DNA of 58,131 bases, from contig JADFDS010000013.1 in assembly GCA_018262715.1 (NCBI GenBank), positions 1-58,131 of the forward strand, in the 5' to 3' direction. How positions within the stretch are numbered: position 1 is the first letter of the stretch; each line of letters starts with the position of its first letter. The position numbers were made by a program, and so were the translations under genes. This document shows, piece after piece, positions 1 to 53,781 of this stretch. The DNA is from Bacteroidota bacterium. GTDB lineage: Bacteria; Bacteroidota; Bacteroidia; Bacteroidales; VadinHA17. Below the pieces are notes generated by a model that was not told where the DNA came from, ran no database searches, and saw only the letters and a program-made list of their open reading frames with translations.

Positions 1-77
1 ATTTCAATCTCAGTGGACCTACGACCCTCCCGACACTTGCGTGTCGGGACGCTCTGAACCAACTGAGCTAATCGCCC
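1..77 (-). repeat. tRNA-like unit, copy 2 (77 nt)
   Basis: Read on the minus strand, the unit begins like a tRNA: acceptor 5' strand GGGCGAT, then a D-arm GCTCAGTTGGTTCAGAGC. The anticodon arm is replaced by a perfect 9-bp stem (TCCCGACAC / GTGTCGGGA) capped by the GNRA-type tetraloop GCAA. GGGTCGTAGGTCC then resembles a variable loop and 5' T-stem, but the unit ends ACTGAGATTGAAAT instead of a T-stem 3' strand and an ATCGCCC acceptor strand. It therefore cannot fold as a complete tRNA. It is identical over 77 nt to the next unit. The window edge coincides with the unit edge. Confidence 0.75.
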
Positions 78-78
78 T

Positions 79-155
79 ATTTCAATCTCAGTGGACCTAC
101 GACCCTCCCGACACTTGCGTGTCGGGACGCTCTGAACCAACTGAGCTAATCGCCC
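79..155 (-). repeat. tRNA-like unit, copy 1 (77 nt)
   Basis: This is an exact copy of the unit at 1-77, separated from it by one base (period 78). It is the promoter-proximal copy, starting about a dozen bases downstream of the minus-strand TATATTTG element at 168-175, so a transcript from that promoter would begin with it. The structure is as in the other copy: tRNA 5' half, GNRA-capped 9-bp hairpin in place of the anticodon arm, no 3' acceptor strand. Confidence 0.75.
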
Positions 156-167
156 GGAAAGAGAGTG

Positions 168-26658: not shown

Positions 26659-27825
26659 TTAAACACGTTTGGTGGGTTCCCATATCCCGTTTTCAATCCC
26701 TATTACTACCTTCACAAACCCTGCTGTCAGCGCTGCATTCATTAACAGGAACTGAGTCACATAACGCTGAAGGAGCAGCTTTTTTCCCCTCCTGTCAAGC
26801 GCGATGTCAAGCGCTGACAAAATTATGAAAATCAGCTGAATTGCTGTAAGACAAAAATAGAAATCAGACCGGCCTGAAAGAATGACCGTTGTCATGAAAA
26901 ACAGCACCAGCAGCAGGGGGGTTAACCACCTCATTATCTTATGTGAAAGAAAAGCAAAGACAACCCCCGGTCTTCCTGAGATGAAGGGTCCGAATCGGAA
27001 CAGGTTCTGGAATGATCCGGCAGCAATCCTTGTCCGCCGGCGGAACTGCTCAATCATGTCAGGCTGGGTGTCTTCATAAACCACTGCTTCCGCGATGTTG
27101 AAAGCCCTGTAGTTCTGTTTCAGCACGGACAGGCCCACAAAGAGGTCATCAACCAGGGTGTTATCCGGCAGCCGGGGGAAGAGGCTCCGGCGCACCGCAT
27201 AGCAGCCTCCGTAAGGCCCGGGCATTGCTCCCCAGAGATTGCCCTCAGCTCTCTTCAGTGCTGTTTCAAAACGGCTGTACATGATCTCCTGCCGCGTTAT
27301 TCCCATGTCAGCAGCAGATAAAGTACGGACGGTGGCATCACATAATCCGGTACGCGGGTCCGCAAATCCATCTGCCATCTGTCTGACGACGGAAGGAGTG
27401 AACATCACATTGGCATCAGTTACAACCAGGATATCTCCTTTTGCCTTCGAGGCGAGTTCGTTGAGCATGGCTGCCTTTCCTTTTCTTTCAGCGTTGATGA
27501 TGAGCTGAATATGCGGGTTAGTGGCTGCCACAGCGGTTATAACGGCGCCGGTGCCATCGTCAGAACCGTCTGAACCAATAATGAAGTCCAGCTTTTCGGC
27601 CGGATATTCCGAGGCCAGCATGCTGCGAATCTTTTTTTCTGCCACTTCCTTCTCGTTATGCAGCGACATCACCACGGTTACTGTTGGAAGGGATGCTGAG
27701 ACCACGGCCGGGGAAGGTGCCCGCCTCTTCTTTACGTTTGCTGCCAGGATTACTGCTGCCGGATAGATGAGATAGGACCATGCCAGCAATGCAGCTGTGA
27801 TAACCAGGATTGTTTCAGCTGCCAT
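26659..27825 (-). CDS. Membrane glycosyltransferase family 2
   Basis: A 388-residue GT-A enzyme. An N-terminal TM (about 3-28) precedes the catalytic domain with [33 protein letters not shown] (DxD-like) and [22 protein letters not shown] occupies the usual (Q/R)xxRW position, and two or three C-terminal TM helices follow (about 290-375). Such enzymes build polysaccharide or glycolipid at the inner membrane. It overlaps the upstream GT4 gene by 11 bp. Acceptor and sugar are unknown. Confidence 0.87.
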
Positions 27826-29026
27826 ATTTCAGCTTTTTGTAGAATTCAAGCAGTCGTGCCGTGACGGAGGCGTTATCATATCTCTCCTTTACCAGGCTTA
27901 AGGCTGCCCTCCCTGTTGAGGCCCTCAGGCCGGGATTTTCAAGCATCCTGATAATGGCAGCGGTGAATGACGCCGGGTCTGAGGCAACTGCCAGTTCCCG
28001 GCCGTTTTCCACGGGCAGTCCGGCCACAGCCGCAGGGGTGGCTACCACAGGCCTTCCTGTGCTCATGGCCTCAATGATTTTTATCCTGATGCCGCTTCCT
28101 GCAAAGAGCGGGGCTACCATCACATGGTTTGAAGCTATGAATTCCAGGGCGTTGTCCGGTTCTCCCTCGTTAAAAATATTGTGCCCGGAGGGCAGGAAGG
28201 CCCCCTTGCTAAGTCCTTTTCCGGCAATATGCAGGGTGGCTGAAGGGATCTTTCTTATGACTCCGGGCCACACTTCGGAAATGAACCAATTTATTCCGTC
28301 TGCATTGGGTTGCCAGTTCATCGCACCGATGAATCCAACGCGCGGGCTTTCCGGTGGAGGCTCCGGGAGCATAAGAGCTTCGTTTGTTCCGGTCTCCGAA
28401 AGGAACACCGGTTTATTTCCGGCCACTGATCTGAACCAGGCGGCGTCAGACTCGCTGATGGGCACCACGGCGTCAAACTGCCCCGCTGCCTTTGTTTCTG
28501 TCTTCTTCAGCCTCCGTGAGAGGACGGACAGGTAATATTTACGGAGTGGACTGCAGGCTGTGGCGGCCATCATTTCCCTGATCGTATGTTCGAGGTTATG
28601 AGCCCTGAGGACCACAGGGGAGGTGGTCAGGTTTCTGATCTCGTTCAGGTAGAGGGTAAGGGGCAGGCCTTCACAATGGATTATGTCGAAATGACTTCCG
28701 GTGAGTATGCTGCGAAGTGTTTTGGAGTATTCCGCTGACCTGAACCTTGCGAGGTCATAAGGTTCACCGGAGAAGAGCAGGTTCAGGATCATCGGGAGAG
28801 GCCTGATCGCTGTATTTACCGGAACAGTGAAGTAATCGATGAGATAATCCGGTTTCGCGCCGAAGGCGGAAATTCCGGAAGTCAGGTGCTTTTCTGTCAC
28901 CATTGAAAGCACCGTCACGTCTGCTCCGGTGGCAGAGAGGCCTCTGACACAGTGAACTGATGCCACCGTTCCGCCGTCATGCACCGGCCAAAGGGGTCTA
29001 GGCGCCAGTACCAGTATCTTCATCAT
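27815..29026 (-). CDS. Glycosyltransferase family 4 (group 1)
   Basis: A 403-residue GT-B glycosyltransferase. The N-terminal domain begins MKILVLAPRPLWPVHDGGTV (glycine loop). The C-terminal domain has VGFIGAMNWQPNADGINWF and a sugar-nucleotide motif APLFAGSGIRIKIIEAMSTG (EX7E-like). It is probably part of LPS or exopolysaccharide synthesis. It overlaps the LptF/G gene by 29 bp, so polysaccharide assembly and lipid export are transcribed together. Confidence 0.88.
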   Translation of the reverse strand: MMKILVLAPRPLWPVHDGGTVASVHCVRGLSATGADVTVLSMVTEKHLTSGISAFGAKPDYLIDYFTVPVNTAIRPLPMILNLLFSGEPYDLARFRSAEYSKTLRSILTGSHFDIIHCEGLPLTLYLNEIRNLTTSPVVLRAHNLEHTIREMMAATACSPLRKYYLSVLSRRLKKTETKAAGQFDAVVPISESDAAWFRSVAGNKPVFLSETGTNEALMLPEPPPESPRVGFIGAMNWQPNADGINWFISEVWPGVIRKIPSATLHIAGKGLSKGAFLPSGHNIFNEGEPDNALEFIASNHVMVAPLFAGSGIRIKIIEAMSTGRPVVATPAAVAGLPVENGRELAVASDPASFTAAIIRMLENPGLRASTGRAALSLVKERYDNASVTARLLEFYKKLKYGS

Positions 29027-30497
29027 CCTTTTCGGGCTTAATGCCGGTAAGGAAGGCTCCTATCTTCCTGAAGAAGAGGATATAAGTTTCGGCATTCATT
29101 ATGGCCGCATCGGTAGTGGCCTTATAGGTCAGGAATGCGCCTATCGGGAGAAGGATAATAGTGGAGGCAAGCATGCCCAGGGGTATGCTTATAATCAGTT
29201 CCTTGGCAAACTTCTCACCGGAGAGGGTGATCACATAGTAAATTACGAAGAAGAGTACGGAGATCACTGCAGGGGTTCCTAGGCCGCCTTTCCGGATGAT
29301 AGCTCCCAGGGGTGCCCCGATAAAGAAGAAAACCAGGCAGGCAAAGGGAAGGGTAAATCTCTTGTACCTTTCAGCTTCGTATTTGCGGAGGTTTTTTGCT
29401 TCCGCCACGAGAGCCTCGCTCTTTTCGATCATGAATGAGGTGCCCTCCCGGGCGAAGCTCAGTGCTCTGCTGATGGTGGTGCCCCTGTCGTTGTAGCTCA
29501 GGGTGTCGAAAGCAGCCCGAGCATTGAACTTCTGTGTCTTCCATGGAGCAAGGGAATCTTCTACGTGTTTTACACCAGGTAAGCTGAAATGTGAGGTTGT
29601 GAGGAGCCTTGTCTGGTTGAACTCCGAGTAGTAGGCATCGGTCCTTGACCTGAACCTGGTGGAGAGTGAGTCAATAAAGTATGTAAGGTCAGCGGTATTC
29701 AGCATCGCGTAGTTGGAGCGGTAGATATCCATCCCTGACCGGTTCAGGCCGAAACCTTCCAGTTCCACCACCATTGTCTGTTCGGTGAACCTGTCACGTC
29801 TGAAGGGGTATTTTCGTTTCTCCTGCGGGACATTTTTCTCTTCTATATCCTTGTATACATGTCCGTTATACAGCGTCAGTATGAGGCCGCTTTCGTCGGC
29901 TGTCACATTCATGTAACCGCTGTCTGCATAAATGACCGCAGTGTTTCCTATTCCGTCCCTGTGGTCATAGACGTAGATCCCGTCGAGGCGGTTAGTTTCG
30001 GGGTCCTTGTCGGTTATCTTGATGCTGAAGCCGTCGATGCCATTATAGAAGGTTCCTGCCTGGATATTGAGTTCTGGCCGCATACGGCGAATGTCAGTCA
30101 GCAGTGTCCTTGCTTTCCGTGTTGAGATGGGAAGGATGTAATCAGCGAACAGGAATGATCCGATTGCGAGGAGGGAGGAGAAGACAAAGATAGGCATCAT
30201 GATTCTCTGGAGAGGCACGCCGGAAGATTTAAGGGCTGTCAGTTCGAGGAACTCGCCGAGGTTGCCGAAAGTCATCAGAGAGGCAAGGAGTATTGCCAGC
30301 GGGAGTGACAGGGGAACGAATGTAAGTGAGAACTGGAAGAGTAGTTCGCCGAGGACCTTGAGTTCAAGGCCTTTTCCGGCGAGGTCATCGACATACATCC
30401 AGAGGAACTGGAGAATGAAGATAATGAGCACGATGAAGAATGTCAGGACCAGCGGTCCGATAAACGATCTTATCATAAACAGATCGATCTTCTTCAT
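28998..30497 (-). CDS. LptF/LptG family lipopolysaccharide export permease
   Basis: A 499-residue YjgP/YjgQ-family membrane protein. Three N-terminal TM helices (about 12-125) include GNLGEFLELTALKSSGVPLQRIM, the coupling segment of this family. A large periplasmic beta-jellyroll region (about 130-360) and three C-terminal TM helices (about 375-475; FACLVFFFIGAPLGAIIRKGG) follow. LptF and LptG with the LptB ATPase extract LPS from the inner membrane; only one permease is present here. It is the first gene of a five-gene operon that continues through GT4, GT2, ribBA and fmt. Confidence 0.92.
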   Translation of the reverse strand: MKKIDLFMIRSFIGPLVLTFFIVLIIFILQFLWMYVDDLAGKGLELKVLGELLFQFSLTFVPLSLPLAILLASLMTFGNLGEFLELTALKSSGVPLQRIMMPIFVFSSLLAIGSFLFADYILPISTRKARTLLTDIRRMRPELNIQAGTFYNGIDGFSIKITDKDPETNRLDGIYVYDHRDGIGNTAVIYADSGYMNVTADESGLILTLYNGHVYKDIEEKNVPQEKRKYPFRRDRFTEQTMVVELEGFGLNRSGMDIYRSNYAMLNTADLTYFIDSLSTRFRSRTDAYYSEFNQTRLLTTSHFSLPGVKHVEDSLAPWKTQKFNARAAFDTLSYNDRGTTISRALSFAREGTSFMIEKSEALVAEAKNLRKYEAERYKRFTLPFACLVFFFIGAPLGAIIRKGGLGTPAVISVLFFVIYYVITLSGEKFAKELIISIPLGMLASTIILLPIGAFLTYKATTDAAIMNAETYILFFRKIGAFLTGIKPEKDDEDTGTGA

Positions 30498-30513
30498 TGT
30501 CTCGGGTGTGGTG

Positions 30514-30545
30514 CAAACGTACGTTATTTTTGAGAAAGATGCAAA
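30514..30545 (-). promoter_or_regulatory. Promoter for the lptF/G-GT4-GT2-ribBA-fmt operon
   Basis: On the minus strand TTTG (30545-30542), a 20-nt spacer and TACGTTTG (30521-30514) form a near-ideal Bacteroidota promoter. It lies between the START-like gene stop and the LptF/G start at 30497. Confidence 0.7.
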
Positions 30546-30551
30546 GCTCTC

Positions 30552-30938
30552 TCACTCGGTGACGCCGAGGACTTTTTTCAGGTATGAGATCTGGGTGTCC
30601 CAGAGGTCTCTGGCATCTTCGATTTCATCCTCTTCTGCATGGTCGGTAATGATAAGTGCAGTATCATTGGTGAGTTCATGGATAATTATTCTGAATTCGA
30701 AGAAGTTTGATTCGGTGTCGGCGAAGTCGAGCCAGTCGAATCTGACGGCTTTATTTTCCCTTGCGTAGATGAGCCGGGCTCTTGCCTCTGTCTTATCCCA
30801 GTGGAAGGTGAAGACATCGCCGTCGACAGTGACATTGTCAGCGAACCATTCTGACAGTCCTTCCGGGGTGCTCAGCCTGTCGTAAAGAACTCTTACCGGT
30901 GTATTCAGGGTGTATTCAATTTCAAATCTGGCTCTCAT
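30552..30938 (-). CDS. START-like / SRPBCC domain protein
   Basis: A 128-residue cytosolic protein of the helix-grip (SRPBCC/AHSA1-like) fold: FEIEYTLNTPVRVLYDRLSTPEGLSEWFADNV at the start, alternating strands, then a C-terminal helix (ARDLWDTQISYLKKVLG). In Bacteroidota this short form is widespread and annotated as START-like; its ligand is unknown. It is just upstream of the LptF/G operon and divergent from the tRNA locus. Confidence 0.85.
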   Translation of the reverse strand: MRARFEIEYTLNTPVRVLYDRLSTPEGLSEWFADNVTVDGDVFTFHWDKTEARARLIYARENKAVRFDWLDFADTESNFFEFRIIIHELTNDTALIITDHAEEDEIEDARDLWDTQISYLKKVLGVTE

Positions 30939-30989
30939 TTCAGGGAAGGACTGTCATGCAATATAAAAATAATAGATGAAAAGAAAAAG

Positions 30990-31023
30990 TTTGTTCGGCA
31001 AAATGAAAAAATATTTATATTTG
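30990..31023 (+). promoter_or_regulatory. Promoter for the tRNA-Met locus
   Basis: TTTG (30990-30993), a 22-nt spacer and TATATTTG (31016-31023). The -7 element is identical to the one before the tRNA-like units at the left edge. Transcription from about 31029 would place both tRNA-like units (31061-31221) in the leader of the tRNA-Met transcript. Confidence 0.7.
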
Positions 31024-31060
31024 CAGCCTTGAAAAACCCGCCTTTTAGCGGTAAGAAATC

Positions 31061-31126
31061 TCAGATGGTCAGAGCGTCCCGCATCCGACATCAGGAGGAT
31101 CGGGAAGGTTGAGAGTTCAGTGAAAT
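31061..31126 (+). repeat. tRNA-like unit A (66 nt) in the tRNA-Met leader
   Basis: The unit opens with a D-arm-like TCAGATGGTCAGAGCG, matching the downstream tRNA-Met D-arm. Then comes a long imperfect hairpin in the anticodon-arm position (TCCCG-C-ATCC ... GGAT-CGGGA), GGTTGAGAGTTC like a 5' T-arm, and an end in AGTGAAAT without a 3' T-strand or acceptor strand. It is identical to unit B at 61 of 66 positions. A small CCGC/GCGG hairpin precedes it. Confidence 0.7.
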
Positions 31127-31155
31127 AGTTATATGGCGACCCCGACAGGTCGGGG

Positions 31156-31221
31156 TCAGATGGTCAGAGCGTCCCGTATCCGACTTCAGGAGGATCGGGA
31201 AGGTCGAGAGTTCATTAAAAT
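31156..31221 (+). repeat. tRNA-like unit B (66 nt) in the tRNA-Met leader
   Basis: Same architecture as unit A, 95 nt downstream. It ends TTCATTAAAAT, 4 nt before the true tRNA begins. It is preceded by GGCGA (the same acceptor start as tRNA-Met) and a perfect CCCCGAC-AG-GTCGGGG inverted repeat (31140-31155). The five differences from unit A lie in the hairpin and the 3' tail. Confidence 0.7.
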
Positions 31222-31225
31222 ATTT

Positions 31226-31299
31226 GGCGAGATAGCTCAGATGGTTAGAGCGCATGATTCATAATCATGAGGTCCCGAGTTCAATTCTCGGTCTCGCTA
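31226..31299 (+). tRNA. tRNA-Met (anticodon CAT), elongator type
   Basis: A complete cloverleaf. Acceptor GGCGAGA / TCTCGCT (one G-T pair at position 1-72). D-arm GCTCAGATGGTTAGAGC. Anticodon stem CATGA / TCATG with loop TTCATAA and anticodon CAT. T-arm CCGAG-TTCAATT-CTCGG. Discriminator A. No CCA is encoded. The paired G1 start and D-arm differ from the initiator tRNA (1-72 mismatch), so an elongator tRNA is likely. A lysidine-modified Ile tRNA also has CAT, but the anticodon stem and variable loop resemble elongator Met. Confidence 0.93.
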
Positions 31300-31314
31300 C
31301 AACGGAAAGCACCG
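31299..31314. repeat. 16-bp inverted repeat, left arm
   Basis: ACAACGGAAAGCACCG begins at the discriminator base of the tRNA. Its exact reverse complement lies at 31423-31438. The arms enclose the tRNA terminator and 108 bp in total. Confidence 0.7.
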
Positions 31315-31340
31315 GTAATCTGCAGAAGGCAGATTACCGG
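31312..31340 (+). terminator. Terminator of the tRNA-Met transcript
   Basis: The stem CCGGTAATCTGC / GCAGATTACCGG (12 bp) is closed by AGAAG and followed by CCTTTTTGTTTT. Confidence 0.88.
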
Positions 31341-31422
31341 CCTTTTTGTTTTATGACTGAGCTGAAAACTTGTTTTCGGGCGACAGAATAAAACGAAAAG
31401 GCCATGGCAGCGCTTTGCGTTG

Positions 31423-31438
31423 CGGTGCTTTCCGTTGT
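31423..31438. repeat. 16-bp inverted repeat, right arm
   Basis: CGGTGCTTTCCGTTGT is the exact reverse complement of 31299-31314. It lies beyond the terminator. Confidence 0.7.
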
Positions 31439-31452
31439 TAAGCCCCCTTCCT

Positions 31453-31489
31453 GAGAATCACGACCCGCCGGCAGCGGGTCGTAATTCTC
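31453..31489. repeat. Long hairpin overlapping a tRNA 3'-end copy
   Basis: GAGAAT-c-ACGACCCGC, loop CGGCA, GCGGGTCGT-a-ATTCTC: a 15-bp imperfect stem. Its 3' arm overlaps the duplicated tRNA 3' end that follows. Confidence 0.6.
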
Positions 31490-31500
31490 TCTCTCGCTAC
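31483..31500 (+). repeat. Duplicated 3' end of tRNA-Met
   Basis: AATTCTCTCTCTCGCTAC matches the tRNA 3' end at 31283-31300 (AATTCTCGGTCTCGCTAC) at 16 of 18 positions, exactly 200 bp downstream. It forms a direct repeat around the inverted-repeat segment, like an attachment-site duplication or the remnant of a second tRNA copy. Confidence 0.65.
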
Positions 31501-31504
31501 AGAC

Positions 31505-31534
31505 AGTCCGGTCTTTACAGATCGGACTTTTTTT
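31505..31534 (+). terminator. Second terminator at the tRNA locus
   Basis: The stem AGTCCG / CGGACT, with an inner TCT/AGA pairing, is followed by a run of seven T. It lies directly after the duplicated tRNA 3' end and 13 bp before the GIY-YIG gene. Confidence 0.75.
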
Positions 31535-31547
31535 GTAAATTAGTTTT

Positions 31548-31796
31548 GTGAAATATTATGTCTATATCATTTACAGTCAGTTAAAGAACCGTTATTATAC
31601 CGGTTATTCCAGCGACCCGGCAGAACGGCTCATTGAACACAATCTTGGAGCTACGCCTTCAACAAGACCCGGCAGGCCATGGACATTAATCTATACTGAA
31701 GAATTCGAGGACAAGACCGCAGCCATCAGGCGTGAAAATGAGATCAAGAAGATGAAAAGCCGTAAGTACGTTGAAAGGCTTGCAGGCATCAATTGA
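31548..31796 (+). CDS. Solitary GIY-YIG nuclease-superfamily protein
   Basis: An 82-residue UPF0213-type protein made of the GIY-YIG core alone: YYVYIIYSQLKNRYYTGYSS (YVY...YTG version of the motif), then ERLIEHNLG, TPSTRPGRPWTLIYTEEF and a C-terminal helix AAIRRENEIKKMKSRKYVERL with the conserved Arg/Glu. The only in-frame start is GTG at 31548. Such single-domain proteins are abundant in Bacteroidota, often beside RNA genes; biochemical roles are mostly unproven. A TAgtTTTG element (31541-31548) ends at the GTG and would make a leaderless message. A weak CCGCC/GGCGG hairpin follows (31827-31843). Confidence 0.88.
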   Translation: MKYYVYIIYSQLKNRYYTGYSSDPAERLIEHNLGATPSTRPGRPWTLIYTEEFEDKTAAIRRENEIKKMKSRKYVERLAGIN

Positions 31797-31975
31797 CTGT
31801 CAGTTGGTATTCCTGGGAAAATCTAACCGCCGGCATCGGGCGGCAATTTTGCCTGGATGAAGAGAGTCCCCGTTATTTTTTTCTGATATAGTTTGAAGGA
31901 GTTAAGAAAAGTTAGTAAATTTAACTGTAGTAAAATTGTTCCGACTCCGACCATTCACTAAAACTATCCTTCCAA

Positions 31976-33295
31976 ATGAAAAAGCTGCTCTTCGCATCAG
32001 TGATGCTGATCATGTTGTGTGCATCGTTTCTTACGGCACAGAAAAAGGTAATCTTCAGTGCCACACCGTCTGACGCGGGAATCTATCTTGAAAAAAACAA
32101 TGAATTCACCCTTCTGGGACAGGGATCCTATGAACTGAAAATAGGGTCAGATGAGGTTTATACCATAAAGATATGGAAGGAGGGATTCGAGCCTTTTGTG
32201 AAATCCTACACCAGGACGAACAATGGGACACTGACAGAGAATGTTGAACTCCAAAACCGGGTGGTGAAAGTCGTGGCCTCTCCCAATACCACCGAGGTTT
32301 ATGCTGATAATGTTTATGTTGGCAAGGGAGGGGAGGAGCTTGAGGTTGTGGTACGGTATAACAACATGGTCAATCTGGAGGTCAGGGGAGAGGGGTATCA
32401 GACTGTAAGGCGCTCGTATTATAACATGGAAAATACAGAGATCCCGCCGCTGAAGGAGAACATTGAGCTGGCAGAAAGACTTGTAAAGATTCTGGCCAGC
32501 CCTCCCGGATGCCTTATATCTGTTGACGGGAAGCCTGTCGGAGAGACCTCGGCCGAGGTTGTTGTCCCCAAAGGATCATGCATAACGCTCAAGGTGGTCA
32601 AGGATGGGTATGCCCCCTTTGAAAAGTCATATTGCAACAAGCCCGAAGTAGCCCTTCCGCCGATATCCGAGGAAATTATTCTGAAGGACAGAATCGTGCA
32701 AATAAATACCACTCCCGAGGATGCAGCTATCAGGGTTGATGGCAGGGCAGTGGGTAAAGGGAACTATTCGTTGCTGGTAAAACGTGATCAGTGTGCTGAG
32801 ATCGAGGTGATGAAAGACGGCTTTGACACAAACAAGAAGTCATATTGCAACAAGGCAAACATGAGTGAACCCCCGGTAACGGATCACATCAGGCTTGCCG
32901 AGGATGAGGCGTGGCTTTCATCAATCAGAAGCGATCAGGCCAATGTCAACTTTTCAATACCTGTTAATTCCAGCCTTGGTAATGATGCTGCATGGAAAAT
33001 TATCGGACAGATTGTTATGGAGAAGTTCGATGTGATCGAAATCAGTGATCCAGTTACGGGTTACCTGAGGACTGCGTGGAATGTGAAGCTTTTCGGGAAC
33101 GGTAAGACCATCCGGACCCGTTGCATAGTTAAGCTGGGAAATTCGAATCCATTGCGTTACGTGATCAAGATCGTCAGCGAGGAGAGTATTGTTCCGGGCA
33201 CCAGTGTGAAGGAAGACGAAAACTTCAAGGAATGGGACAGGATACTGAATACCTATAAAGACATAATAGGAGAAATTCAGGCGAGAATCAGCTGA
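31976..33295 (+). CDS. Secreted PEGA-like repeat protein
   Basis: A 439-residue protein with a signal peptide (1-21, ending FLTAQ). It has four consecutive PEGA-like beta repeats of about 75 residues (about 22-310). Each has a VxxxxxPxxAxIxVDGxxVGxG-type core followed by DGYxxxxKSYxN; repeats three and four share KSYCNK, giving paired Cys. A C-terminal domain (about 315-439; GNDAAWKIIGQIVMEKFDVIEISD) resembles small lipoprotein-type folds but I cannot name it. PEGA domains occur in surface and S-layer-associated proteins. It is probably a periplasmic or outer-membrane surface protein, with no clear promoter or partner. Confidence 0.75.
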   Translation: MKKLLFASVMLIMLCASFLTAQKKVIFSATPSDAGIYLEKNNEFTLLGQGSYELKIGSDEVYTIKIWKEGFEPFVKSYTRTNNGTLTENVELQNRVVKVVASPNTTEVYADNVYVGKGGEELEVVVRYNNMVNLEVRGEGYQTVRRSYYNMENTEIPPLKENIELAERLVKILASPPGCLISVDGKPVGETSAEVVVPKGSCITLKVVKDGYAPFEKSYCNKPEVALPPISEEIILKDRIVQINTTPEDAAIRVDGRAVGKGNYSLLVKRDQCAEIEVMKDGFDTNKKSYCNKANMSEPPVTDHIRLAEDEAWLSSIRSDQANVNFSIPVNSSLGNDAAWKIIGQIVMEKFDVIEISDPVTGYLRTAWNVKLFGNGKTIRTRCIVKLGNSNPLRYVIKIVSEESIVPGTSVKEDENFKEWDRILNTYKDIIGEIQARIS

Positions 33296-33328
33296 GATCC
33301 GGTGTGGCAATCCCGTATCTCTCCGGTA

Positions 33329-33844
33329 CTAAAAAATAATCTTAATCCCCGCTGTCACGGGAGTGATGGCAATTGTCAGGCTTGGACCAGATGCAATACC
33401 GGCAGACGAATGTGAATTATAGAGGTTAATTGACCTGACAAACTGGGCATTGCCTTTAAGCAGGAAGGGAATGCCCGCCAGTGCCATGCCGCAACCTATC
33501 AGAAAAGGACCTGTGTTGGCGCCGGATACATCAAGGCTGCCACTGTTAAGTGTCTCAAGATCATTAAGGGTGCTGATCAGTGAGGATGCTCCTATCACCA
33601 GACAACCACCGCCAAGGAGACCGAGACCAATACCGGAATTCCTGGATGATTTTTTCAATTCATCGGCTGATCCAGTATAGCCTGACAGAACGGTTCGTAT
33701 TTCCTTCCGGTCAAGACGCTGGCCGTTCTGAAAATACTGGATGGCCAACCCCTTTTTCTCAGTGGTTATCGGACCTGGTTGCTGCGCTGCGGCCGACATG
33801 CACGAAATGGTGCAGATTACGGCAATTATGACACTTCTTATCAT
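33329..33844 (-). CDS. Small exported protein of unknown function
   Basis: A 171-residue protein with a signal peptide (about 1-20, SCMSAAAQ). Two Gly-rich hydrophobic segments (about 72-90 IGLGLLGGGCLVIGASSLI; about 112-128 PFLIGCGMALAGIPFLL) look like membrane helices or a helical hairpin. The C-terminus is strand-like and ends in Phe (ITPVTAGIKIIF), as in outer-membrane proteins. No family recognised. It converges on the PEGA-like gene. Confidence 0.65.
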   Translation of the reverse strand: MIRSVIIAVICTISCMSAAAQQPGPITTEKKGLAIQYFQNGQRLDRKEIRTVLSGYTGSADELKKSSRNSGIGLGLLGGGCLVIGASSLISTLNDLETLNSGSLDVSGANTGPFLIGCGMALAGIPFLLKGNAQFVRSINLYNSHSSAGIASGPSLTIAITPVTAGIKIIF

Positions 33845-34091
33845 ACGGATTCGTTTTTAAAACATTGATAACAGGTATTATTTATGACGAAAAGTTAGGT
33901 AATATTATTAAATATTTAATATATTAGCCTGAAAACAAAATAATATTAATCCTGAGCTGTTTTTGGCAGGGCCGGAGAGAAAGAGTTTAATTATTAGCTG
34001 AAGTGTTCAGGTGAAGTTTCTCCTGAACCTGGTTTAATGCGGAGTAAACAAAAAGCTATAGTCCTTTTCAAATAACTAAAATGTCAGCAGG

Positions 34092-34535
34092 ATGAGAACA
34101 AAGAATTATTTAATTGGCCTTGTCATTGGGGTGTTGATCTTCTCTGTTTCAACTCTGGAAACCAATGCTCAGAGTCAGTATGCCGCTTGGCGTGACCGCA
34201 GTGATGAGCTGCCCGGGATGATCAGTGACGGTGAAATGTTGCTGATTGCGGGTGGAGCAGTACTGGTTATCGGAGGTGTGATAACATATATTATTATCAA
34301 AAAGAAGCAGGACAACAAGCTTGAGGCAATGTTGCCCGACTGCTGTGGTATGACAGGAACTGAAAGGATTGTTTCTGGCCGGACACAGGGCAGCTCACTT
34401 GGATCACTTTACAATGACATCTCCAGGGCCACGGACCAGGCATCAGTGCTGATCTTCTCAAGGCTGGACAAGATACCTAATCCGGGTCAGGGACAGAACA
34501 ATGTTCTTTCAATGGGGGTATTGATTAAGTTTTAG
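34092..34535 (+). CDS. Small membrane/exported protein of unknown function
   Basis: A 147-residue protein with a signal peptide or TM (about 8-27, ending TNAQS), a second TM at about 50-69 followed by KKKQ, and a soluble tail containing a CC pair (PDCCGM). The last residues (NNVLSMGVLIKF) are strand-like and end in Phe, as in the neighbouring 171-residue protein. No family recognised. Nothing clear is seen in the AT-rich 33845-34091 upstream. Confidence 0.6.
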   Translation: MRTKNYLIGLVIGVLIFSVSTLETNAQSQYAAWRDRSDELPGMISDGEMLLIAGGAVLVIGGVITYIIIKKKQDNKLEAMLPDCCGMTGTERIVSGRTQGSSLGSLYNDISRATDQASVLIFSRLDKIPNPGQGQNNVLSMGVLIKF

Positions 34536-34577
34536 CGGTTATTTGGATAGGACTGGGTGCATCTCTGTAAAAAAAAA

Positions 34578-34596
34578 GACGCCCGTTCAGGGCGTC
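34578..34596 (-). terminator. Terminator of the TPR protein gene
   Basis: The stem GACGCCC / GGGCGTC (7 bp) has loop GTTCA. On the minus strand it is followed by nine consecutive T. Confidence 0.88.
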
Positions 34597-34627
34597 CTAT
34601 GGAATTCCGATACAAAGATCAGGCTAA

Positions 34628-35602
34628 CTATTGACATTTGAGGTTTGTCCTCTGTGCCTTTGCTGCCTCTGCAAACGGACCGTAGAGTGCATTCTTGAAT
34701 GACTCGCATGCGGCAGCGGTGTCACCCTTGCCCACCTGTGCAACGGCGAGCTGATAATAGAACATTGCCTTGGCTTCTGCGTCACCTGTCTCCAGATCCA
34801 GCCCTTTCTGTGCATACTCGGCACCTTCGGTGAAGCTGTTTTTCTTGTTATAGACATCGGCAAAGAAATAGAACATGGTCTTGTCGTCACCATACTTTGC
34901 TGCTCTGTTCAGCAGAGCCAGCGCTTCGTCGAGTTTATTGGCACTGTTGGCTTTTGATCCTGCTGCGCGAAAATACTCAAGTGCGGCGCCTTTAGCCTGT
35001 ACGGCCTTGTCGGCATCCTTCGCGGGATCAAGCTTAGCCAGGAACTGGTCGATGGTCTGCTCGAAGAGATCAGCCTCATCACGGTTCTTATAAATAAGAG
35101 CCTTGTTATAAATAGAGGCAATGTGATCAGGATTCAGCGTCAGCACACTGTCAAATGCGAGCATCGCATTGTCATAGTCATCGGCAGAGAAGAATTCGGT
35201 TGCCATCTTGTAGTAACCGTTGACAAGGATCTTTTTTGAATTCTCTCCGTGGGTTTTGCTCCCGTACTTTTCAGCCATGGCACCTGCAAGTTTCGAGGCT
35301 GCGATTATCTCGGCAGCAGGTTTCTTTTCGTTGTAAGCAGTGGCAGCAAGCTTATAGTATAGTCCGGGTAGTACCTGTACGGCCTTCTGTTTCAGATCAT
35401 TGGTAGTTTCACCAACCTTGTCGGACAGTTCAATCACCTTCTCGAAAGCAGTTATCGCTGTCGGAACATCAGTCTGGATCGCCTTGGCGCCTTCATTGTA
35501 AACTGCTATAACCTCATTACGGTCCTGTGCATTCAGGCCGGAGGCAAAGAATGCTGAAAAAGCCAGCACACAAGCTATTGAACATAAAAGTTTCATCTTC
35601 AT
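34628..35602 (-). CDS. Exported tetratricopeptide-repeat protein
   Basis: A 324-residue protein with a signal peptide (1-25, ending GLNAQ). It has about six TPR-like helical pairs, clearest in YNEGAKAIQTDVPTAITAFEKVI, DDYDNAMLAFDSVLTLNPDHIASIYNKALIY, LDEALALLNRAAKYGDD and AMFYYQLAVAQVGKGDTAAACESFKNAL. TPR arrays bind partner proteins; this one should act in the periplasm or at the outer membrane. It is monocistronic, with its own terminator. The 35603-35838 gap upstream is AT-rich without a recognised element. Confidence 0.85.
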   Translation of the reverse strand: MKMKLLCSIACVLAFSAFFASGLNAQDRNEVIAVYNEGAKAIQTDVPTAITAFEKVIELSDKVGETTNDLKQKAVQVLPGLYYKLAATAYNEKKPAAEIIAASKLAGAMAEKYGSKTHGENSKKILVNGYYKMATEFFSADDYDNAMLAFDSVLTLNPDHIASIYNKALIYKNRDEADLFEQTIDQFLAKLDPAKDADKAVQAKGAALEYFRAAGSKANSANKLDEALALLNRAAKYGDDKTMFYFFADVYNKKNSFTEGAEYAQKGLDLETGDAEAKAMFYYQLAVAQVGKGDTAAACESFKNALYGPFAEAAKAQRTNLKCQ

Positions 35603-52536: not shown

Positions 52537-53781
52537 ATGACAGGCGAGGGCAAACAGGATTCCGGGTCCGGAAGGGTGTTGCACGAATCCAGGATATTCG
52601 GGTTCGAAAGAAATATTCTTTTTACAGGCATGACCAGTTTTCTTACGGACACATCCGTCAAGATGATTTATTCGGTCATGCCGATGTTTCTAATGTCCAT
52701 TGGCGCTTCCAAGGCAAGTCTTGGACTGATTGAAGGAGTCGCCGAGAGCACGGCTTCTCTAATCAAGGCGCTGTCTGGTTTCTGGAGTGACAGGTTAGGC
52801 AGGAACAAGCCCTTCATGCTGGTCGGTTACGCCATCTCTGCAATCGTTCTTCCGCTGTATGCCTTTGTCATATCACCGATGCAGGTTCTGATTCTCAGGT
52901 TTGCCGAGAGATTTGGCAAGGGCATTCGCACGGCTCCCCGTGACAGCCTTATTGCTGCGTCTGTCACCAATAATGAGACAGGCAAAGGATTCGGTTTGCA
53001 GAAGGCGATGGACAACAGCGGCGCCATCGCAGGACCACTCATAGCATTTGCTGTCCTCAGCCTGTTCCCGGACAACTACCGGCTCATTTTCCTGATTGCC
53101 GGGATACCCGCCATTGCCGGGATTTTTGTCATAATATTCGGGATAAAGGAGGTGAAAAAGAATAAGACTGAGCTTCTGCAGAAGTTCCGCTTCAGGGATT
53201 ATCCGAAACGGTACTGGTTCTTTCTTGCCATCATCTTTGTTTTTACTCTCGGAAACTCGACTGATGCCCTGCTGCTCGTCAAAGCCAATGAGGCTGGGAT
53301 AAAGGTCGCTTTCATACCTTTGGTTTATCTTATAACCAATCTCGTGTCAGTTGTTGCTGCCATACCCGCCGGATCGCTATCCGACAGGATCGGGAAAGAG
53401 AGGCTGCTGGTAGCGGGGTTCCTGATTTACGCGGTGGTCTATCTCTTTTTCGGCATGAATGTGGGTGAGGGCGCTCTTTTTGTGCTCTTTGCACTTTACG
53501 GGTTATATTCGGCAGCTACTGACGGCATACAGAAGGCCTTTGTGGCTGATGTGGCAGACGCCAACAAGAAAGGGACTGCCCTTGGCATTTACAATGCCAT
53601 GCTCGGGATAACCCTTCTTCCTGCAAGCCTTATTGCGGGCATACTGTATGACAGGGTCAATTCATCCGTCCCTTTCATATTTGGCGCTGCCATGGCGTTA
53701 CTCGCCGCCATCCTGATGGCAGTCTACATGTTTACAGGCAGAAAGCACCCGGCAACAGACAGCAGACAACAATGTTTATAG
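52537..53781 (+). CDS. MFS transporter
   Basis: A 414-residue, 12-TM major facilitator. It has the characteristic LIEGVAESTASLIKALSGFWSDRLGRNKPFMLVG loop 2-3 motif and RFAERFGKGIRTAPRDSLIAAS, a signature of one bacterial MFS subgroup of unknown substrate. A second LSDRIGKERLLVAGF motif lies in the C-half. It is probably co-transcribed with the Ca2+-type ATPase. Convergent with the EamA gene across the 8-bp repeat array. Confidence 0.92.
   Translation: MTGEGKQDSGSGRVLHESRIFGFERNILFTGMTSFLTDTSVKMIYSVMPMFLMSIGASKASLGLIEGVAESTASLIKALSGFWSDRLGRNKPFMLVGYAISAIVLPLYAFVISPMQVLILRFAERFGKGIRTAPRDSLIAASVTNNETGKGFGLQKAMDNSGAIAGPLIAFAVLSLFPDNYRLIFLIAGIPAIAGIFVIIFGIKEVKKNKTELLQKFRFRDYPKRYWFFLAIIFVFTLGNSTDALLLVKANEAGIKVAFIPLVYLITNLVSVVAAIPAGSLSDRIGKERLLVAGFLIYAVVYLFFGMNVGEGALFVLFALYGLYSAATDGIQKAFVADVADANKKGTALGIYNAMLGITLLPASLIAGILYDRVNSSVPFIFGAAMALLAAILMAVYMFTGRKHPATDSRQQCL

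Follow-up and report, generated by a model that had tools for sequence, protein, structure and literature searches.

Palindrome-scarred copies of tRNA genes beside small GIY-YIG genes in Bacteroidota and Patescibacteria, probably left by homing-type elements

Mobile endonuclease genes that carry part of the gene they invade have been described in fungal mitochondria. These so-called mORFs supply a new end for the host gene along with the endonuclease gene, so that the native end stays behind in a displaced position; gene hybrids of this kind involve atp6 of Allomyces and atp6, atp9, cox2 and nad3 of Glomus sp., the atp9 one being of the GIY-YIG type (PMC3630166). In T-even phages, SegB, a free-standing GIY-YIG homing endonuclease, adjoins tRNA genes and drives the tandem amplification of tRNA–nuclease segments (PMC13096335). 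In CPR bacteria, insertion sequences with homing endonucleases are located in rRNA genes (PMC11270868).

The locus described here surrounds a tRNA-Met(CAT) gene of a Bacteroidota bacterium. It lies in a window of 58,131 nucleotides, the whole stretch of DNA that was analysed, which is one entire contig (JADFDS010000013.1 of assembly GCA_018262715.1). Two tRNA-like units precede the tRNA, and a small stand-alone GIY-YIG gene follows it. In our reading, the units are copies of tRNA-Met that have been displaced and scarred by a palindrome, and a homing-type element built around the small stand-alone GIY-YIG endonuclease probably left them there. The mORF-like layout of such loci, combined with the tie of SegB to tRNA genes, leads us to read the units as the displaced tRNA parts of GIY-YIG homing-type elements. 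As in mORFs, an endonuclease gene is combined with a complete gene and the displaced end of the same gene; the differences from the mORFs described are that the gene invaded is a tRNA gene of a bacterium, that an intact copy of the complete gene persists and that a palindrome replaces a set segment of the displaced part (PMC3630166). Tandem tRNA–ORF repeats at two of our loci (L105 and L122; L and G numbers denote loci and genomes) resemble SegB-driven amplification, although SegB acts in phage genomes and the main text of that paper contains neither ‘palindrom’ nor ‘truncated tRNA’ (PMC13096335). The CPR insertions are a further case in Patescibacteria of homing endonucleases associated with conserved RNA genes, but they are in rRNA, mostly of the LAGLIDADG type and in some cases classed as group I introns; the term ‘tRNA’ is absent from the main text (PMC11270868). 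REP elements and GTAG/CGTC-tagged palindromes, of 20–40 bp, are likewise short and dispersed, whereas the palindrome here has a set place in a tRNA copy and no constant tag, and it occurs in a genome without a RAYT (PMC3733652). Among the open-licence literature matches listed, no title dealt, for bacterial chromosomes, with GIY-YIG elements nested at tRNAs or with tRNA copies scarred by palindromes. Rickettsia palindromic elements are palindromes inserted within genes and are longer than those described here; we know of no tie between them and tRNA duplication or a nuclease.

Table 1. Features of the tRNA-Met(CAT) locus and of the left-edge array, in positions of the window.
Feature	Position	Strand	Details and basis
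Left-edge broken tRNA copy 2	1..78	-	5′ part GGGCGATTAGCTCAGTTGGTT; palindrome 28-49; reaches contig end
Left-edge broken copy 1, same tRNA as copy 2	79..156	-	Palindrome 106-127
TATATTTG box	31017..31024	+	Read from sequence; TTTG at 30991-30994
Broken tRNA-Met copy 1 (unit 1)	31054..31134	+	tRNA positions 5-27; hairpin 31077-31105; positions 45-58; tail 31120-31134; self-comparison, alignment with tRNA
Broken tRNA-Met copy 2 (unit 2)	31135..31225	+	GGCGA; palindrome 31138-31157; tRNA positions 12-27; hairpin 31172-31200; positions 45-58; AT-rich tail; self-comparison, palindrome search, alignment with tRNA
Intact tRNA-Met(CAT)	31226..31300	+	ARAGORN, Rfam
Terminator 31312-31340 and surrounding repeat	31299..31438	+	Enclosed by perfect 16-nt inverted repeat 31299-31314 / 31423-31438
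Broken tRNA-Met copy 3	31453..31501	+	Palindrome 31453-31489, then tRNA 3′ end (positions 58-76)
Second terminator	31505..31528	+	Immediately ahead of GIY-YIG ORF
Stand-alone GIY-YIG nuclease ORF	31548..31796	+	82 aa, GTG start

The locus (Table 1) opens with the TATATTTG box and TTTG, which we take to be a Bacteroidota-type promoter. Between this box and the tRNA, the sequence-only reading of this DNA had described two near-identical tRNA-like units without an acceptor 3′ strand, and our comparison agrees: the units are 91% identical over 70 nt (31061–31130 versus 31156–31225). Both follow the letters of tRNA-Met to position 27 (D arm), continue with a 29-nt TCCCG...CGGGA hairpin, resume with positions 45–58 (the variable loop and the 5′ T-arm strand, where unit 1 matches fewer letters) and finish with an AT-rich tail that extends to the next tRNA start. 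In both, the anticodon arm (tRNA positions 28–44) is swapped for the palindromic hairpin and the 3′ part of the tRNA, with the acceptor 3′ strand, is lost. Unit 2 opens with the GGCGA of tRNA-Met itself (31135–31139), after which comes a second palindrome; this start of unit 2, the downstream copy 3 and the GIY-YIG ORF add to what the earlier reading had listed. Local alignment to the intact tRNA-Met gave scores of 31 (31054–31076), 27 (31156–31171) and 28 (31483–31501), compared with a top score of 26 in 200 shuffles of 30901–32200; the third of these segments is the tRNA 3′ end of copy 3, preceded by a 16-nt inverted repeat that is 94% complementary. The earlier reading had also seen the same layout in the units at the left edge of the window. 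The 13-mer TCAGAGCGTCCCG occurs four times in the 3.15 Mb assembly, always within the tRNA-Met units and the left-edge units and thus exclusively in these two arrays (reversed control, 0). Chance duplication was rejected on the basis of this 13-mer and the shuffled-alignment controls. The units do not score as tRNAs: in the window, ARAGORN calls one tRNA here and the gathering score of Rfam RF00005 is reached only by 31226–31299. At the gathering threshold, Rfam matches nothing but tRNA in the window, that is no T-box, other known leader RNA or intron, and a known leader RNA was rejected for this reason.

The nuclease gene is free-standing, forming an ORF of its own behind a terminator and lying in neither an intron nor an intein. 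Its product matches PF01541 (E = 1.8e-17, 63.8 bits, cut-off 22.6), and Y6, Y17, G19, R27, H31 and E63, presumably the catalytic positions, are invariant across eight tRNA-associated GIY-YIG proteins. The order of parts in the window is atypical, with a broken 3′ copy preceding the ORF and no significant copy behind it, which suggests two layered events.

Some further features were seen around the tRNA and the ORF. The stretch 31797–31860, 3′ of the ORF, contains TCAGTTGGT and a CCGCC...GGCGG palindrome and may be a decayed tRNA copy with a non-significant alignment score. The perfect 16-nt arms at 31299–31438 resemble terminator-flank repeats at L016, L025, L027, L030 and L034. By eye, several tRNA terminators are trailed by an apparent inverted partial copy of the terminator, with approximately 100 nt between the two; these inverted copies may represent another type of insertion into the 3′ flanks of tRNAs.

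Broken copies are not confined to tRNA-Met in this genome. When each tRNA was scored against its own 350-nt flanks, 7 of the 37 tRNAs had partial copies of their own. At a score of at least 28, own flanks gave 8 of 74 and the cross-isotype background 22 of 2548; eight tRNAs scored, of which the Ile match is really the adjacent Ala unit, leaving the seven counted, and the downstream Met copy scores 26 there. Upstream units occur at Val(cac) (two), Cys (four), Ala(tgc) (one) and Met (two), and downstream copies at Lys(ctt), Lys(ttt), Gly(ccc) and Met. A second tRNA-Val locus (L068, contig 8, ~52560–52910) is made up of three tandem units and a dead tRNA-Val, in which two palindromes replace the anticodon arm and a third is located in the T loop; ARAGORN calls no tRNA in the 2.5 kb stretch analysed there. 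The left end of the window breaks within the left-edge array, which lacks its tRNA there, and a search of the assembly turned up no tRNA carrying the 5′ part of these units. Only a single small GIY-YIG ORF is present in the genome, and six of the seven copy-bearing tRNAs have no GIY-YIG nearby. The argument of the sequence-only reading that independent loci with one layout speak against chance is strengthened by the seven tRNAs, the dead Val locus and the left-edge array, and also by other genomes and phyla. It had proposed looking for similar leaders at other tRNAs of the genome and its relatives; these are present, and the observation stands.

Of 393 genomes of the order, 8 contain a pattern consisting of a D arm and a TCCGCC palindrome, and the reversed control matched nowhere in those 8. 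The matches inspected fall into 11 loci (two being the same place in G215) and are broken tRNA copies, several of them in tandem. An intact tRNA (Val, Gly or Met) adjoins 10 of the 11, the remaining locus (L075) being at a contig end, and the number of unit copies per tRNA ranges from 1 to 4. A scan of named genomes gave, among the matches listed, 116 stretches, of which 40 have a cognate intact tRNA; a GIY-YIG ORF lies beside 18 of these 40 unit-bearing tRNAs versus 0 of the 76 stretches without a cognate tRNA, many of which resemble chance matches in coding DNA. Counted in the 76 are six loci that are tRNA-like and failed the cognate-tRNA test (L136, L138, L147, L171, L179 and L208). The 40, again among the matches listed, include members of Bacteroidales, Prolixibacteraceae, Cyclobacteriaceae, Flammeovirgaceae, Longitalea, Shapirobacteria, Doudnabacteria and Lloydbacteria and, with a weaker match, Cloacimonadota. 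The samples overlap, in that L166, L182 and L185 are loci of G294, G112 and G086.

The association between GIY-YIG genes and tRNAs was surveyed in 40 genomes of the order, which hold 72 distinct stand-alone GIY-YIG ORFs (open frame <220 aa; identical copies counted once). Thirty-five of the 72 lie at most 600 nt from a same-strand tRNA, where we estimate that approximately 0.6 would by chance (40 tRNAs per 3.5 Mb); small GIY-YIG ORFs adjoin tRNAs far more often than chance allows. The other 37 are not near a tRNA, some of them being at contig ends. For long GIY-YIG ORFs (456–662 aa), none of 25 loci had a tRNA within 600 nt. A partial copy of the neighbouring tRNA, defined as a copy within 1 kb whose score is 24 or more and exceeds that of every one of 40 shuffles, accompanies 30 of the 35 tRNA-side ORFs. 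In 22 of the 35 the ORF separates the copy and the intact tRNA, giving the layout of complete gene, ORF and displaced end that the window’s own locus does not have; eight lack a copy across the ORF and five lack any copy. The survey combines two samples. Ten genomes, mostly chosen for their units (8 with unit matches and two further members of the window’s family), contributed 30 ORFs, with 19 near a tRNA, 16 with a copy and 9 with a copy across. Thirty genomes, hand-picked from those of the order that lack matches to the D-arm/TCCGCC pattern, contributed 42 ORFs, with 16 near a tRNA, 14 with a copy and 13 with a copy across.

The position of the copy depends on the side on which the intact tRNA stands. 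Where the intact tRNA is 3′ of the ORF (six cases), the copy is a 5′ part ahead of the ORF and ends at position 21 or 22 in four of the six. Where it is 5′ of the ORF (29 cases), the copy is downstream of the tRNA in 20 and upstream in 12, 8 of the 12 having both, and is absent in 5. The Patescibacteria tRNA-Lys loci L154, L163, L170 and L235 consist of tRNA positions 1–23, a palindrome, the remaining anticodon arm, a GIY-YIG frame from ATG to stop and the intact tRNA-Lys; at L154 and L235 the open frame extends into the tRNA. Units without an ORF correspond to the 5′ half of the ORF-bearing form, with an AT-rich tail standing where the ORF would. Several tRNA-side GIY-YIG ORFs are decayed and carry internal stops. 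No phage vehicle emerged: tblastn gave only GIY-YIG matches below 60% identity, in 21 phage records, and a scan of viral contigs found no relative. Separately, tandem GIY-YIG ORF copies were seen at L252, L296, L300 and L168, with a tRNA beside the last three and none within 600 nt of L252. At L102 and L110, upstream Pro fragments carry long composite palindromes instead of the simple 16-nt one, just before the GIY-YIG ORF.

A tree of 77 GIY-YIG domains (81 columns), in which most forks are weakly supported, shows clustering by neighbouring tRNA. The isotype labels require 21 changes on the tree, compared with a shuffled mean of 42.1 and with 0 of 200 shuffles as low (‘no tRNA’ counted as a label). 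Val, Met and Lys labels each cluster (0 of 500 shuffles as low), whereas Arg labels do not (5 changes, shuffled mean 4.9). One branch with a support of 97 unites 23 tRNA-associated sequences (Lys 7, Met 7, Val 7 and Arg 2), and another with a support of 99 contains 12 sequences without any tRNA neighbour. The protein encoded in the window is placed without support. L193 is labelled by its nearest upstream tRNA, Arg, though its broken copy is Lys; L300_2308 is labelled ‘none’ owing to distance, and other rows with this label may be at contig ends.

The palindromes themselves are widespread. TCCGCCN{2,6}GGCGGA occurs at 37 places in this genome, often away from tRNAs, whereas the reversed pattern occurs at 1. 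At L058–L060, L065–L067 and L071, TCCGCC palindromes lie within simple intergenic repeats (cgcaaat, ggtctgaag and agtctgagactgc), several of them in a longer form, TCCCGnATCCGCC..GGCGGATCGGGA.

Within tRNA copies, the place of the palindrome is nearly constant. Junctions, given as the last tRNA position before the palindrome and the first after it, were mapped in 59 broken copies with a TCCGCC palindrome. The Val junction is 24/35 in 12 of the 13 copies with position 24, one copy resuming at 53; Gly(ccc) has 22/33 in 11 of 12 and 21/32 in one; and Lys has 23/32 in 14 of 15 and 24/33 in one. Met has 38/49 in eight, 36/47 in two and one copy at 22 without a resume point. Smaller groups are Asn (25/36, two copies), Gly(gcc) (29/41, two) and Arg(tct) (23/35 and 39/49, one each), and the remaining Val rows are 45/53 and a chance-like 11. 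A probable chance row (L198) is kept in the 59, and L090, L134, L136, L152, L186, L219 and L303 are off or outside the main junctions. The swapped segment varies by isotype and, for Arg(tct), also between a Cloacimonadota MAG (23/35; L134, where only 16 of 20 letters match the tRNA) and a Bacteroidia MAG (39/49). As the Val, Gly and Met junctions of known origin are all from Bacteroidota, and those of Lys mostly from Patescibacteria (with two further bacteria), the constancy is shown within these groups and not for a single isotype across distant phyla.

Copies with other palindromes (21 rows) extend this picture. The Asn junction is again 25/36 and is therefore identical with two different palindromes. 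An exact swap of the anticodon arm (26–28 / 44–46) is found in Ala, Thr, Val(tac) and the Met of G112, and the units of the window are of the same type. In Arg(acg/ccg) the palindrome is purely inserted, at 22/23. Junctions are 38/51 in Asp and 49/61 in a different Asn lineage, with single ones at L303 (12/18) and L276 (49/56); the Gly(gcc) row of L141 was left out, since it resembles the tRNA’s own anticodon arm and has no palindrome. The two bases preceding the palindrome are AG in 29, GA in 15, TA in 11, AA in 3 and GC in 1 of the 59 copies. In most copies, 8–11 nt of the tRNA are replaced rather than simply interrupted, and the copies compared differ by whole exchanged palindromes. Since the place hardly varies and the palindromes can be exchanged, position seems to matter more than the letters of the palindrome.

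These junctions bear on a different explanation, in which pieces of tRNA were duplicated locally in tandem, dispersed palindromes were inserted into them and the GIY-YIG genes are separate passengers that favour tRNA neighbourhoods. The dispersal of the TCCGCC palindrome in the genome would fit this account, as would the fact that most unit-bearing tRNAs here, and 22 of the 40 in named genomes (among the matches listed), have no GIY-YIG. However, random insertion would scatter, and the junctions are near-constant for an isotype across Bacteroidota families and several Patescibacteria groups, with different palindromes. The copy across the ORF in 22 of 35 cases and the identity of the ORF-less unit with the 5′ half of the ORF-bearing form also tell against it, and we regard such a combination of separate events as unlikely.

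The orthologous tRNA-Met locus could be located in four family relatives by means of the adjacent START_2 gene. In G294, G358 and G212, the TATATTTG box stands immediately ahead of tRNA-Met and the site is empty of units, whereas G112 has one unit of the same anatomy, in which the hairpin is different and the tail reads TTCATTAAAATA. Since G112 belongs to the same genus as G294, units come and go. Two genera have similar TTCATTAAAATA tails, and this likeness could reflect a function of the tail itself. In the comparison of the five genomes, which bears on whether the intact tRNA is the incoming copy and the displaced part the native one, the tRNA-derived letters of the unit read as about equally distant from their own tRNA and from the tRNAs of the relatives. 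A GIY-YIG gene is found at the START_2/tRNA-Met locus in one of the five (this one), within ~1 kb behind the tRNA.

The sequence-only reading had interpreted the units as a family of tRNA leaders that adopt the sequence of their neighbour. Recurring units at tRNAs are indeed found, but adoption of a sequence is not supported: they are broken copies of the adjacent tRNA. A leader family is also disfavoured by the occurrence of units downstream of tRNAs and by the hairpin, which is an exchangeable palindrome and not one leader-specific fold; their absence from three of the four orthologous loci means that the units are not an obligatory leader. A functional transcribed leader under selection, for example an attenuator or an aid to 5′ processing, would still account for the location of the units between promoter and tRNA, for their folding z-scores (-1.87 for unit 1, -2.95 for unit 2, and -4.84 and -3.66 for the left-edge units) and for a hairpin frame and tail that are alike in G112 and here despite START_2 proteins only 62% identical. 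It fits poorly with units missing at those three loci and found by one pattern in only 8 of the 393 genomes surveyed in the order, with a variable copy number and with the same scars 3′ of tRNAs and around nuclease genes, so that we consider it quite improbable.

Two mobile-element explanations fare worse. REP-type palindromes carried into tRNA copies by a RAYT/Y1 transposase would agree with short dispersed palindromes inside and outside tRNA copies, and Y1 transposases are encoded in 7 of 8 genomes searched; but Y1_Tnp (PF01797) has 0 matches in this 98% complete genome, the bases before the palindrome vary and tRNA letters are mostly replaced, making this origin very unlikely. Duplicated att sites left by a tRNA-using tyrosine integrase, as remnants of integrative elements, are hardly credible: the downstream copies of tRNA 3′ ends (Lys, Gly and Met) do resemble att repeats, but 5′ parts are copied too, the copies lie tens to hundreds of bases off, arms are swapped for palindromes, the copies recur as tandem units of about 45–95 nt, and no integrase was recognized among the ORFs listed at 27000–35000 (three checked by Pfam). 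A decoy for anticodon nucleases was also considered; copies with mapped junctions mostly have no intact anticodon arm.

Returning to the homing-type element, it would sit in or beside a tRNA gene, with the endonuclease gene between the intact tRNA and a broken copy of it. It may take two forms: either a 5′ fragment with a palindrome, the ORF and the intact tRNA, or the intact tRNA with its terminator, the ORF and a 3′ fragment with a palindrome, which a second copy of the terminator follows in several cases. Copies without an ORF would represent this module with the ORF replaced by an AT-rich tail, and would build the tandem arrays. For its spread we infer a cycle of DNA cleavage and homing in which the palindrome has a role. 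The nuclease would cut the tRNA gene of an allele without the element, repair of the cut would copy the element in, and the accompanying tRNA copy would restore a complete tRNA. The displaced half would be tolerated only once its recognition segment had been swapped for a palindrome. Later, the ORF may be lost, and arrays may grow or shrink through recombination between the repeated tRNA parts. One finding that we count against homing is that the intact tRNA retains the very segment for which the broken copies have a palindrome; as a guess, the intact tRNA in the element is spared because the recognition site reaches into its flanks. More tentatively, and at somewhat less than even chances, the system may constitute a natural cleave-and-rescue drive, in which isotype-specific GIY-YIG enzymes of Bacteroidota and Patescibacteria cut a tRNA gene and bring its replacement, the palindrome protects the leftover half and tandem ghosts remain.

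The near-constant junction of each isotype predicts the place that the nuclease recognizes, which makes the idea directly testable. For genome annotation, such arrays can cause contig breaks and missing tRNAs. If the homing-type element exists as proposed, one selfish mechanism would lie behind both the tRNA-like repeats and the small tRNA-side GIY-YIG genes of many uncultured bacteria, and bacterial chromosomes would join fungal mitochondria and phages as a setting for homing with gene rescue.
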